Shown: positions 27,420 to 34,936 of the stretch, in pieces
Layout: the number at the start of each line of letters is the position of its first letter
Position numbering within the stretch: position 1 is the stretch's first letter
Source of the DNA: Candidatus Nitrosoglobus terrae
GTDB taxonomy: Bacteria > Pseudomonadota > Gammaproteobacteria > Nitrosococcales > Nitrosococcaceae
Assembly: GCF_002356115.1 (NCBI RefSeq)
Contig: NZ_AP014836.1
Coordinates: 1,737,091 to 1,801,090 of the forward strand
Length of the DNA: 64,000 bases
Direction of reading: 5' to 3'
Position numbers and translations under genes: made by a program
The notes under the pieces: generated by a model
What the model was told of the DNA's origin: nothing
The model's database searches: none
The model's input: the letters and a program-made list of their open reading frames with translations, nothing else

Positions 27420-27953
27420 TTGCTTCACCCTACGCATGATATCTTAGACAAGGCTTTAGTAATAAAGCTTGCTATTTTCGATGTTGACGGAGTATTGACC
27501 GATGGTGGACTCCACTTTGGCAGCAATGGCCAAGAGTATAAAGTTTTTCACGCACGGGATGGTCACGGGATGAAAATGCTCCAGCATACGGGAGTTAGGA
27601 TTGGAATCATTACTGGCCGAACCTCGCTAGTTGTTGACCATCGCATGAAAGATCTCGGAATAATTGATGTCTATCAAGGACAACAACCTAAGCTACCTGC
27701 TTATGAACACCTACTACAAAAATGTAAACTCCAACCCCATGAAATTGCTTATGTAGGCGATGATTTAGTGGATTTAGCCATCATGCAGCGAGTAGGGTTA
27801 GCGATTACTGTCCAAGATGCTCATCCCCTAGTCAAACAGCATGCCCATTGGATTACTCCTAACGTAGGCGGACGAGGTGCTGCTCGTGACGTCTGTGAAC
27901 TCATTATGGAAGCTCAAGGCACTTTCAAAGCGTTACTGGAGAGTCATTATTAA
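27420..27953 (+). CDS. kdsC: 3-deoxy-D-manno-octulosonate 8-phosphate phosphatase
   Basis: KdsC is a HAD-superfamily C0 phosphatase releasing Kdo from Kdo 8-phosphate. It shows the nucleophile motif LAIFDVDGVLTDG, motif II IITGRTS and motif III/IV YVGDDLVDLAIMQRVGLAI. No ATG fits. A TTG at 27420 with AAGAGG 8 bases upstream gives 177 residues and is preferred. An in-frame GTG at 27396 would overlap kdsD and give 185 residues. Either way the gene is translationally close to kdsD. Confidence 0.93.
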   Translation: MLHPTHDILDKALVIKLAIFDVDGVLTDGGLHFGSNGQEYKVFHARDGHGMKMLQHTGVRIGIITGRTSLVVDHRMKDLGIIDVYQGQQPKLPAYEHLLQKCKLQPHEIAYVGDDLVDLAIMQRVGLAITVQDAHPLVKQHAHWITPNVGGRGAARDVCELIMEAQGTFKALLESHY

Positions 27954-28533
27954 ATCAGCGCGCACTTGGGGTATTGTAGCGCTTGTACTTATCGCCACTT
28001 TAACCGCTTGGGAATTATTGCGTGAAGAACCTACATCCCAGCCCAGCCTTAATATCGATTCAAACTCACGTACTATAGATTATTTTATGGAGCAGTTTAT
28101 CTCAACAGTGATAGATCAGAAAGGTTTACTTCTCTACCAATTATCAGGCGCTTATATGGCTCATTATCCCGATAACGACACTATAGATATCACTGCACCT
28201 CACATGTTGTTTTATCATCAGGTTGCAACTCCCAGCTGGGATGTTATTGCTGAGCGGGGGCTGACTAATAGCAATGGTGATGAAATTTATCTTCTGGGTA
28301 AAGTAATTATCCATCAACTTAAGGACAGCTCCCAAACCAGCCACATGAAGATATTAACTCGAGATGTACGAGTTGAGCCTGCTGCAAAATATGCTGAGAC
28401 TCAGCAGCCAGCTACTTTATTAGATAATTATGGAAGAACTGATGGTATAGGCGCCAGAATCTACTTTAAAGAGGAGCGTGTAGAAATTTTATCTCAAGTT
28501 AGAGGAGACTATGCCGCAGCAGATAAGCCTTAG
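27877..28533 (+). CDS. lptC: LPS export ABC transporter periplasmic protein LptC
   Basis: LptC sits in the inner membrane with one N-terminal helix (TWGIVALVLIATLTAWELL) and a beta-jellyroll periplasmic domain that passes LPS from LptB2FG to LptA. Family features are SRTIDYFMEQFISTVIDQKGLLLYQLSGAYMAHYPDND and [13 protein letters not shown] at the end. The start is unclear: the ATG at 27877 and a GTG at 27895 both lie inside kdsC, and no standard start lies just before the membrane helix. Long overlap with kdsC is therefore real or a rarer start is used. Identity rests on sequence and position before lptA. Confidence 0.9.
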   Translation: MLLVTSVNSLWKLKALSKRYWRVIIKSARTWGIVALVLIATLTAWELLREEPTSQPSLNIDSNSRTIDYFMEQFISTVIDQKGLLLYQLSGAYMAHYPDNDTIDITAPHMLFYHQVATPSWDVIAERGLTNSNGDEIYLLGKVIIHQLKDSSQTSHMKILTRDVRVEPAAKYAETQQPATLLDNYGRTDGIGARIYFKEERVEILSQVRGDYAAADKP

Positions 28534-29917
28534 ATTAATAATTTTTTGGCTTATTACCCAAAATCTAGCTTATGAAACTGCTTTAGCTTTCTCTAACGAT
28601 TCAGGGCAACCCATTCATATTGAAGCTGATCGAGGGGAGCTAGACAACCGCAAACAGGTTGCTATTTATTATGGTAACGTACACCTTACCCAAGACAATT
28701 TACGTATTGACTCCGATACGCTTACTATTTTTTATACTCCAGAGAAAAAAATCAAGAAAGCCATTGCGGAAGGTCAGCCTGCTTGGTATCGGCAGCAATC
28801 TAATGATGATAGTGAAGATATGCGAGCTAAAGCCCTCAAAATAGAATACCATGCCGATAATGCCACTATCTATCTCTTCCAAAAAGCCCATGTTTGGCAA
28901 GGTACAAACGAGTTTACTGGAGATCGGATTGTATATGATACAGAGCACCGTATTGTCAGAGGCCAAGGCTCTAAAGCTGGATCTGGGCGTGTACACGTTA
29001 CTATCCGCCCTGATGAAGTCGAACCCTCACCCAATAATTCTAACTCTACTCCTAAAAACTCAGATTCTACACCATCTCTAGCAGCTCCTCCTAAAAATCA
29101 GGTAGCCGATAATCAGCAGCTTAAAAGCGGAGAAGATCAAGGCCGTACCACAGATTGGCTGGCTTTATACGATAGCGCTAATATTAAGAGTAACCAAATA
29201 ATACTTCTCCAGCCACGTACTCAAGTCACCATTATTAATCGCAAAGATGAGTGGCTCCATATCACTACGCTCATAAAAGGTGAGCTGCTAGAAGGCTGGG
29301 TCGAAAAGAAGTTTATTCGGTTACCTGAATCAAATACAGATTCTATATCCTCCTCTCCCATCCCTATAGAATCTTCTAAAAATCAGGTAGTTAAAAATCA
29401 AAAATCTGAAAGCAGGCAGGCTCAAAATCGTACCACAGATTGGCTAAATTTATACGCTAGCACTGATATTAAAAGTAACAAGGTAGCCCGTCTTCAGCCC
29501 CAGACCCAAGTCACTATTATAGATCGCAAGGATGAATGGCTCTATATCACTGCTCTTGTAGAAGGCGAGCTACTGGAAGGTTGGGCTGAGAAAAAATTTA
29601 TTCAATTACCCGAAACAAGTATGAATTCTACGCACCCCTCTCCCATCCCTATAGAATCTTCTAAAAATCAGATAGTTAAAAATCAAAAAATTGAGATCGG
29701 ACAAGATCGGGGTCGCACTGCAGATTGGCTAAGTTTATACGCTAGCGCTAATATTAAAAGTAACAAGGTAGCCCTTCTTCAGCCCCATACCCAAATCACC
29801 ATTATAGATCGCAAAGGAGCCTGGATCTATCTCACTGCCCTCGTAGAAGGCGAGCTACTGGAAGGTTGGGCCGAAGGGAGATTTATTCAACTACTAGAGT
29901 CCAGTCAGCCGAAATAA
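28511..29917 (+). CDS. lptA: LPS transport protein LptA fused to three SH3-like domains
   Basis: The N-terminal half is LptA, the periplasmic bridge for LPS: signal peptide to about residue 26 (ending YETALA), then the OstA/LptA fold ([51 protein letters not shown]). After a Ser/Pro/Asn-rich linker at about 176-205 come three bacterial SH3-like modules, each with DWLxLY, SNxxxxLQPxTQ(V/I)TII and GELLEGW, the Trp falling at residues 216, 311 and 406. They repeat with a 95-residue period. Normal LptA is about 160-190 residues, so the 468-residue protein is unusual. AGAGGAG precedes the ATG, which overlaps lptC by 23 bases. The SH3 modules may bind peptidoglycan or a protein partner (inference). 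Confidence 0.9.
29132..29917 (+). repeat. Three in-frame tandem repeats (period 285 bp) inside lptA
   Basis: The conserved TGG codon of the DWLxLY motif falls at 29156, 29441 and 29726, so the period is exactly 285 bases. Copies 2 and 3 are closer to each other than to copy 1, and the linkers (ESSKNQ(V/I)VKNQ) are also repeated. This points to duplication of a module inside the gene. Confidence 0.9.
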
Positions 29918-29928
29918 TTACATTATCC

Positions 29929-30654
29929 ATGAGCAGACTATCAGCAGATCATCTCGCCAAGCGCTATCAATCTCGATGGGTTGTTAAAGATGTCTCTCTA
30001 GAGCTTTTAAGCGGTGAAGTTGTGGGATTATTAGGCCCAAATGGTGCAGGTAAAACGACCTGTTTTTATATGTTAGTGGGATTAATTCCATCTGATAAAG
30101 GGCTAATTTCCCTAGATCACCATGACATTACTCACTACCCTATTCATCGTCGCGCTCGTCTAGGAATCAGCTACCTTCCCCAAGAAGCTTCAGTTTTTCG
30201 TAAGCTAACCGCCGCTGACAATATTGCTGCTATAGCTGAAACTAGATCCGATCTGACAAAGCCTCAGCGCAAGGATTTAGTCGACAGTTTACTACATGAA
30301 TTAAATATTATGCATGTAAAAGATACCCTAGGCATGAGTCTCTCAGGCGGGGAACGTCGACGAGTTGAGATCGCTCGTGCACTGGCAGTAGATCCACAGT
30401 TTATATTATTAGATGAGCCTTTTGCTGGCGTTGATCCTATCTCAGTACTTGATATCCAAGGTATTATTCGGCACCTCATAGCCCGCGGCATTGGCGTTTT
30501 AATTACTGATCATAATGTTCGAGAAACTCTCGGGATCTGCAAACATGCCTATATTGTTAATGCAGGGGAGGTCATTGCTAAAGGCGAGCCTCAGGAAATT
30601 CTTAATAATGAGCGGGTAAAAGAAGTTTATTTAGGATATAATTTTTATCTTTAG
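29929..30654 (+). CDS. lptB: LPS export ATP-binding protein LptB
   Basis: LptB is the cytoplasmic ATPase of the LptB2FG LPS extractor. The start is the ATG at 29929 ([13 protein letters not shown]); an upstream frame from 29866 would read 21 codons inside lptA without homology. It has Walker [17 protein letters not shown], the Q-loop [12 protein letters not shown] typical of LptB, signature [19 protein letters not shown], Walker [13 protein letters not shown] and switch DHNVRETL. The 241 residues are normal. It begins 11 bases after lptA. Confidence 0.96.
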
Positions 30655-33043: not shown

Positions 33044-33568
33044 ATGGATTCCCCTAGCCAAAGCAGCGCAATAGGCCATGGGGTACTGCTAGTGATTTTT
33101 AACTTAGGAGTCCTATTAACTGGAGAAAGCGGTATTGGCAAAAGTAGTTTAGCTTTAGAGTTAATTAGACGAGGGCACCATCTAATTGCTGATGACACTC
33201 CCATTTTTCATCGCGAAGGATCTACTAAACTAATAGGCAGCTGTCCTTATATATTACAGGATTTTTTAGCAGTACCCGGCCTAGGAGTCATCAATATCCG
33301 CGCTATTTATGGCGATCAAGCTATTATTGATCATCACCCACTTGATTTCGTTATTCGCCTTATTCCTAATAAGTATATTGAGCCACTAACCCGTAGCTTA
33401 GGCCAATGGGAGCAATTAGGCATTAAAATGACTGAGCTTACCTTACCTTTAGCAGGAAATATTCCACAGGCAACCATGATAGAAACAGCTGTTCAAGATT
33501 ATCAGCTACGGTTGAAAAACTATGATGCCTTACTTGAGCTACAAAAGCGACAAAATAAATCTATCTAA
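33044..33568 (+). CDS. hprK: HPr kinase/phosphorylase, kinase domain only
   Basis: A 174-residue protein that matches the catalytic half of HprK: HGVLLVIFNLGVLLTGESGIGKSSLALELIRRGHHLIADD holds the Walker A loop (GESGIGKS) and the following His/Asp. VPGLGVINIRAIYGDQAI is the signature region, and LPLAGNIPQATMIETA is the C-terminal K-loop region. Canonical HprK has about 130 more residues at the N-terminus; only 15 bases separate this gene from ptsN, so that domain is absent. Short HprK proteins are known in Alphaproteobacteria. HPr phosphorylation at Ser is the likely activity, inferred from the family. Confidence 0.88.
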   Translation: MDSPSQSSAIGHGVLLVIFNLGVLLTGESGIGKSSLALELIRRGHHLIADDTPIFHREGSTKLIGSCPYILQDFLAVPGLGVINIRAIYGDQAIIDHHPLDFVIRLIPNKYIEPLTRSLGQWEQLGIKMTELTLPLAGNIPQATMIETAVQDYQLRLKNYDALLELQKRQNKSI

Positions 33569-33677
33569 TGCTTACTGCTAGGTTAAGAAAAAGATAACAG
33601 TTTTTATAATATTCTATTTTGTATACATACATTATTCATAGATGAACTTCGCTTAAAATAAAACTAGTGTAGATCCA

Positions 33678-34523
33678 ATGAGATTGATTATCATTAGCGG
33701 GGTATCAGGATCAGGAAAAAGCATCGCTCTTCATGCTTTAGAAGATCAGGGTTATTACTGTATTGATAACCTCCCTATCGATCTTCTCCCCCATTTTGCC
33801 CAGAAAATGCAAGGAAGTACTAATCGACTGCGAGCTGCTGTTGGTATCGATGTGCGTAATCTCTCCCAAGAATTAAAACAATTTCCTCAGATTCTAAAGG
33901 AAATTGAAAGCACAGGAATTGAGTGTCGTATTATCTTCTTGGATGCTAATGATGCAACACTCCTTAAACGTTTCAGTGAAACCCGTCGTAAGCACCCATT
34001 CGGTCATATCCCTCTAGCAGAGGCAATTCGCCATGAACGAAACTTACTAGAAGCTATTTCTGAGAAAGCTAACCTTAGGATAGACACCACGTGCACTACA
34101 GTGCACCAGCTACGAGATTTAATTAGCGAACGAATTGGCAATAGCGCCTCTACAGAGATGTCAGTATTATTTCAATCCTTTGGCTATAAGCATGGAGTTC
34201 CTTTAGATGCTGATTTTGTGTTCGATGTCCGCTGCCTACCTAATCCTCATTGGGAACCCCATTTACGCCCCTTGACGGGGCGCGATCCAGAAGTTATTTC
34301 CTATCTTGAGCGCCATAAGATCGTCGCCAATATGAAACAAGATTTAATTATATTTTTACAACACTGGCTACAACATTTTCAAAATACCAATCGCAGCTAT
34401 TTAACTGTTGCTATTGGCTGTACAGGAGGACAACATCGTTCTGTTTATTTAGTAGAGCAGCTTACAGCTCATTTCCGCTTCCTTCACGACCAAGTGCTTT
34501 GCCGTCATCGAGAGTTATCATGA
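33678..34523 (+). CDS. rapZ: RapZ nucleotide-binding protein
   Basis: RapZ (YvcJ family) binds nucleotides. In E. coli it is the adaptor that brings the sRNA GlmZ to RNase E to control GlmS. The 281-residue protein has Walker [30 protein letters not shown], Walker B-like region, and the C-terminal IGCTGGQHRSVYLVEQL motif. It follows hprK after a 109-base AT-rich gap that could hold a promoter. Its stop overlaps the next gene by ATGA. Whether GlmZ regulation exists in this organism is not known. Confidence 0.94.
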   Translation: MRLIIISGVSGSGKSIALHALEDQGYYCIDNLPIDLLPHFAQKMQGSTNRLRAAVGIDVRNLSQELKQFPQILKEIESTGIECRIIFLDANDATLLKRFSETRRKHPFGHIPLAEAIRHERNLLEAISEKANLRIDTTCTTVHQLRDLISERIGNSASTEMSVLFQSFGYKHGVPLDADFVFDVRCLPNPHWEPHLRPLTGRDPEVISYLERHKIVANMKQDLIIFLQHWLQHFQNTNRSYLTVAIGCTGGQHRSVYLVEQLTAHFRFLHDQVLCRHRELS

Positions 34524-34936
34524 CTGTCGGCGTACTTATCATTACCCACGACAATATTGGTCCGTCTTTACTAAATATCGCCAACGATATACTAGGGAGC
34601 TGTCCTTTGCAGCTTAAGGTATTACACGTTACCCGAGCATCTCATCTAGAATTCTTGCAAGCACAAGCACAAGTATTGATAAATAGCTTAGATACAGGCC
34701 ATGGGGTCTTGATTTTAACAGACATGTATGGCTCTACACCTAGTAATATTGCCTGCAATGCAGCTGATAAAAAACACGCTCAAGTAGTATCAGGTCTTAA
34801 CCTGCCCATGCTAATACGGGTACTTAATTATTCACGCCTAAGCCTTAATGAGCTAACAGAAAAAGCAATCAGCGGTGGACGTGAAGGAGTCCATATCTGC
34901 CTGACTACGATAGAGAAACATAATGATACGCGGTGA
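34520..34936 (+). CDS. Mannose-family PTS EIIA component
   Basis: A 138-residue EIIA of the mannose (fructose IIA, type 4) family. The ATG at 34520 overlaps the rapZ stop (ATGA) and gives MTVGVLIITHDNIGPSLL with the phosphorylatable His10. A longer frame from 34499 inside rapZ is not supported. LILTDMYGSTPSNIACN and GLNLPMLIRVLNYS are also typical. No EIIB, EIIC or EIID is near, so it is probably a regulatory relay, not a sugar carrier. Its end overlaps ptsH by 14 bases. Confidence 0.92.
   Translation: MTVGVLIITHDNIGPSLLNIANDILGSCPLQLKVLHVTRASHLEFLQAQAQVLINSLDTGHGVLILTDMYGSTPSNIACNAADKKHAQVVSGLNLPMLIRVLNYSRLSLNELTEKAISGGREGVHICLTTIEKHNDTR

Follow-up and report, generated by a model that had tools for sequence, protein, structure and literature searches.

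What might three SH3-like modules do at the C-terminus of LptA, a protein commonly regarded as one minimal domain? The Lpt bridge consists of LptC, LptA and LptD joined via the edges of their jellyrolls, and this bridge must cross the peptidoglycan layer. Other descriptions have the two membranes holding it in place, and to our knowledge little is known about its placement or stabilization at the peptidoglycan. The window analyzed here, which is the whole 64-kb stretch of DNA, encodes an LptA with 300 more residues than the familiar proteins, indicating that LptA accepts accessory domains. The explanation that we consider best as a whole, and hold with middling confidence, is that the protein is a working LptA of an ordinary LPS bridge that carries an accessory C-terminal SH3b arm.

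Anatomy of lptA and its repeat array

The lptA reading frame is unbroken from ATG to stop and, as for other LptA members, sits between lptC (identified by Pfam) and lptB (identified by its ORF; Table 1). The genes rpoN, hpf and ptsN come after lptB, which is the customary lpt neighborhood. Genes that are hprK-like, rapZ-like and PTS EIIA-like, named by translation alone, occupy positions 33044-34936 downstream of rpoN-hpf-ptsN. A search of the 64-kb window against Rfam gave no match.

Table 1. Positions of the lpt genes, protein domains and repeat units in the window.
Feature	Coordinates	Strand	Evidence
lptC, overlaps the start of lptA	27877..28533	+	Pfam LptC 7.6e-41; ORF
lptA, 468-aa LptA-SH3-SH3-SH3 protein	28511..29917	+	ORF and translation; TIGR03002 1.6e-42; Pfam LptD_N 4.3e-30; SH3_3 3.1e-15, three stretches
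Probable signal peptide (N-terminal hydrophobic helix), residues 1-27	28511..28591	+	AF2 helix 3-23; similar leader of relatives ends near ALA/WAL; cleavage putative
LptA beta-jellyroll, residues 28-167	28592..29011	+	TIGR03002; AF2; PDB matches LptH 4uu4, LptA 2r19
Flexible linker 1, residues 166-208, S/P/N-rich	29006..29134	+	AF2 pLDDT <50 at 175-205; composition
Repeat unit 1, 285 bp (end of a linker, SH3, part of the linker that follows)	29088..29372	+	
SH3b module 1, residues 209-271	29135..29323	+	SH3_3; order-specific SH3 profile, domain E 5.5e-19
285-bp repeat unit 2	29373..29657	+	
SH3b module 2, residues 304-366	29420..29608	+	SH3_3; order-specific profile 1.7e-18; AF2 pLDDT 93.7
Repeat unit 3, cut off by the stop codon	29658..29917	+	Repeat search carries the match on to 29942
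SH3b module 3, residues 399-461	29705..29893	+	SH3_3; order-specific profile 2.8e-16
lptB (ABC ATPase), ATG start inferred	29929..30654	+	ORF translation; recognizable ABC motifs

The LptA domain is complete, with a score of 144.8 bits against TIGR03002 (cut-off 71.7) and residues 28-167 aligned to profile positions 3-141/142. A candidate partner with an N-terminal jellyroll, named LptD from its size, is a 775-aa frame at C1:1505156 of the source genome that matches PF03968 at 24.9 bits (cut-off 20.4). Behind the LptA domain, the repeat search found three gapless 285-nt copies with 285/285 spacing, of which copies 2 and 3 share 75% and 67% nucleotide identity with copy 1. Each unit is 95 codons long and comprises a linker of ~30 residues and a domain of 63 residues. 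Tandem Repeats Finder (TRF) assigned the array a period of 285, 2.7 copies, 0% indels and a score of 931. Nothing else in the window comes near it; the one further tandem array is a trivial one of 41 bp. The tandem array is far above chance. The first-pass annotation, which had described an intact LptA followed in frame by three modules with an exact 285-bp period, was thus borne out, including the Trp codons that it placed at 29156, 29441 and 29726, all of which are in frame.

The same annotation had called the modules SH3-like, a reading that a profile search placing them outside any SH3 family would have refuted. Instead, SH3_3 (PF08239) matched the whole protein over three stretches at 56.5 bits, above the gathering cut-off of 27, with the single modules scoring slightly under that cut-off (22.6-26.6 bits, 7e-6 to 1e-4). 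When the order's module profile was searched against the PDB, the best matches were the bacterial SH3b chains 2krs (2e-8) and 2kq8 (8e-7), one of which comes from a cell wall hydrolase. PF08239 detected no second SH3_3 protein across the source genome, which thus shows neither a donor nor a paralogue.

AlphaFold2 (AF2), run on the whole protein with 36 relatives, predicted with confidence a jellyroll (residues 31-150, pLDDT for the most part 87-95) and three SH3 barrels, with disorder before and between the barrels at residues 175-205, 275-303 and 370-396. The low whole-protein pTM (0.41) fits a model of independent beads on flexible linkers. Module 2 predicted alone from a 43-module alignment formed a six-strand SH3 barrel, and VIA-align matched it best to SH3b domains from NlpC/P60 enzymes, from the phage endolysin 4krt and from LytB (Z 8-10.5, rmsd mostly 1.6-1.9 over 57-60 residues; best match Z 10.5, 1.7 A over 59 residues), with eukaryotic SH3 domains ranking lower at a Z of about 7. 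Foldseek against the PDB returned no match at E <= 0.001, and the fold assignment therefore rests on the profile, AF2 and VIA-align.

Distribution and history of the SH3b modules

Relatives were retrieved with an alignment as query, five from the source family and many from the second family of the order. We identified the latter as Methylophagaceae because several of its LptA proteins are identical to those of named Methylophaga records. As counted from the matches listed, 57 of the 59 LptA matches in the order extend through the C-terminal SH3 part, and genomes of 2-4 Mb have retained the SH3 domain. The two exceptions are a match that is a fragment (G062, profile 2-99) and a 178-aa LptA without SH3 from a 1.1-Mb genome (G009). 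The others all have one SH3 module except those of a sister genus of 1.8 Mb (G002), with two, and of the source genome, with three.

The short LptA of G009, which is the Methylophagaceae genome DT_60, lies at L078:5944-6480 / L127:1058-1594, and its absence of SH3 is a secondary loss in a reduced genome. At L006:1501-2802, genus g3 of the source family encodes an LptA whose two SH3 modules stand apart on a long, acidic linker (about 77 residues), apparently an independent duplication. A lipoprotein-like ORF of Methylophagaceae (L129:946-1884) has a similar SH3b at its C-terminal end (E 8e-9), a possible hint at the origin of the SH3 in the order's LptA.

Outside the order, we sampled 369 gammaproteobacterial genomes in an even draw (308 with matches) and 299 genomes in a phylum-wide draw (66 with matches at a stricter threshold). 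Among the matches listed, none covers the SH3 part and all end at or before profile position 225 of 270; a fused match would have ranked at the top of the gammaproteobacterial listing. A search of a plasmid collection found ordinary LptA only. Within this sampling the LptA-SH3 fusion looks specific to the order, and independent fusions elsewhere, with an unlike SH3 or in unsampled genomes, are possible. Long LptA frames from other gammaproteobacteria (L116-L126) were considered as candidate C-terminal fusions; none matches the order's SH3 profile, and their extra length consists mostly of upstream reading-through or short low-complexity tails.

Judged from these comparisons, one SH3b is the ancestral state of the order, the fusion being old and only the triplication special. 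LptA with one SH3 is the usual form throughout the order, as the first-pass annotation could not see from the sequence alone. In the module tree, modules 1 to 3 (m1 to m3) form one clade (UFBoot 97) within which m2 and m3 are nested (97), separate from both modules of G002, which places the triplication in the source lineage and makes it stepwise. Values of dS between the domains are 1.06 (m1-m2), 0.77 (m1-m3) and 0.35 (m2-m3), and omega for the same pairs is 0.15 (bootstrap upper limit 0.31), 0.27 (0.52) and 0.40 (0.90). Third codon positions vary most (28 versus 18 and 13), and the domains share 65-76% amino acid identity. By these codon-level measures, the SH3 copies are old, diverged and under purifying selection, which makes recent turnover of copy number at the strain level unlikely. 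The idea that module number varies between strains by recombination holds to the extent that genera differ in having one, two or three modules, but the divergence of the copies argues against ready change among strains. We are highly confident in this account of the protein's anatomy and history.

A possible tether for the Lpt bridge

The surface that would face a ligand differs between the source protein and its relatives. In the relatives, the RT-loop reads LNVRTGPGTQY, with N, R, G, P and Y conserved at 90% or more, and genomes of 3.4-4.1 Mb from the source family retain this loop (LRTGPDTDY or LRTGPGTDY). The motif LNVRxGPxxxY, which was derived from the relatives and is not a requirement of SH3_3, is absent from all three source modules; these instead read L-x-LY-x-S-x-x-IKS, having lost its R, G, P and Y. 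Since all three modules share the altered sequence, the RT-loop was most simply changed before the triplication, and with its loss the ligand may have changed as well. All 43 modules retain Trp W39 and the GW pair without exception, so that the binding surface, as read from the alignment, seems to be in part retained and in part rebuilt. Mutation of a conserved Trp in an SH3b ligand site abolished binding elsewhere, according to work cited in PMC7614798, and a positive pocket is discussed for the SH3b of TagV (PMC7614798). The source modules, unlike that pocket, are close to neutral in net charge.

In the source lineage, two tandem duplications of the 285-bp linker and SH3 unit turned the ancestral single SH3b into three, the first giving rise to m1 and the precursor of m2/m3 and the next to m2 and m3. 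In a mechanism consistent with these features, the exported jellyroll would join LptC and LptD in the bridge, and the long flexible linker would let the SH3 arm hang without blocking the edge strand. The SH3 beads would then hold a fixed component of the envelope, for which the likeliest candidates are the peptidoglycan sacculus and a protein bound to the wall, and the tether may position or stabilize the bridge, with three beads adding avidity. We consider it probable that the arm is a tether of some kind, which is also the most economical role for it. Given that the solved structures nearest in fold are SH3b domains from peptidoglycan hydrolases, a peptidoglycan tether is our best guess; by this fold company peptidoglycan would be the leading ligand, with a protein partner close behind, and our confidence that peptidoglycan itself is bound falls somewhat short of even. 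The source genome encodes PBPs and OmpA-type wall binders, indicating that there is a wall to bind. Against a wall tether are that the fold alone shows no ligand, the loss of the RT-loop, the near-zero charge and the absence of SH3 in G009. Because this reduced relative keeps an LptA without the arm, the arm is accessory, lies outside the LPS conduit and is not needed for the core function. In E. coli, an LptA with a shortened C-terminus remains able to support growth (PMC5575297).

Alternatively, the SH3 modules may bind a protein partner, such as LptC, LptD/E, the Pro-rich linker of a neighboring LptA or a wall enzyme, and thereby control how the bridge assembles or link LPS export with growth of the wall, a reading to which we give limited credence. 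SH3 folds generally bind peptides, and in the relatives Pro-rich linkers adjoin the SH3, but the inter-module linkers of the source protein have few prolines (2-3 per 32 residues). A changed RT-loop beside a W39 and GW that are invariant across the order would fit an altered protein ligand, whereas the nearest folds, the SH3b domains of wall enzymes, point away from a protein partner.

It is also conceivable, if improbable, that a reduced genome has expanded the modules neutrally or with slight degeneration, in which case one SH3 or none works and copies 2 and 3 are ballast. Every copy has kept its frame and an intact core at dS values of 0.35-1.06, omega is below 1 in 3/3 pairs and AF2 predicts three confident folds, which together argue against such an expansion despite the disappearance of the RT-loop motif from every copy, the high upper limit on omega for m2-m3, the pair with the highest value, and the confinement of copy gain within the family to its two small-genome genera (1.8 and 2.0 Mb). 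An assembly artefact, or the wrong joining of a separate gene to lptA, is an exceedingly improbable source of the extension, and we found no evidence supporting it. The source genome (2.02 Mb) is 99.98% complete in two contigs, the copies (67-75% identical in nucleotides) are too diverged for an assembly duplication, and relatives carry the same fused gene, not the separate gene that would have refuted the first-pass annotation.

Extended to the order, the tether model would have the LPS bridge fastened to peptidoglycan or to a wall-bound machine by the SH3b arms of LptA, with one lineage having multiplied the arm threefold and altered the loop that faces the ligand; we put this forward as a rather doubtful proposal. 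If true, it would mean a cell-wall anchor for the Lpt bridge. As the SH3b-armed LptA is kept across the order, including culturable Methylophaga, the question of bridge placement is testable by a small truncation of the gene. In the open-access literature that we searched, which is part of the whole literature, we found no description of LptA-SH3, and as far as that literature goes, the order-wide LptA-SH3b and its lineage-specific triplication are new.

Comparison with known systems

The source protein resembles LptA of E. coli (YhbN) and LptH of Pseudomonas aeruginosa in its probable signal peptide, its jellyroll and its position between lptC and lptB, as reflected in the matches to TIGR03002, 2r19 and 4uu4. 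Those proteins end soon past the jellyroll (about 175-185 aa), whereas the source protein continues through its three SH3b modules. With the single-SH3 LptA of Methylophagaceae and the source family it has the fused architecture and the Trp/GW core in common, but the relatives have one module with an intact RT-loop of the LNVRTGPGT type and the source protein has three with LxLYxSxxIKS. The source modules have the fold (VIA-align Z 8-10.5) of the SH3b domains in NlpC/P60 enzymes, in endolysins and in LytB, and match Pfam SH3_3; they differ in being borne on an LPS carrier with no catalytic domain, and their wall binding is putative. TagV, an accessory lipoprotein of the T6SS, offers an earlier case of an SH3b accessory to a machine that spans the envelope; there too, holding of the machine to the wall is only proposed (PMC7614798). 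TagV is a separate lipoprotein that is unfused to its machine, whereas the source SH3b is fused to LptA, and the likeness is thus one of working and not of membership.
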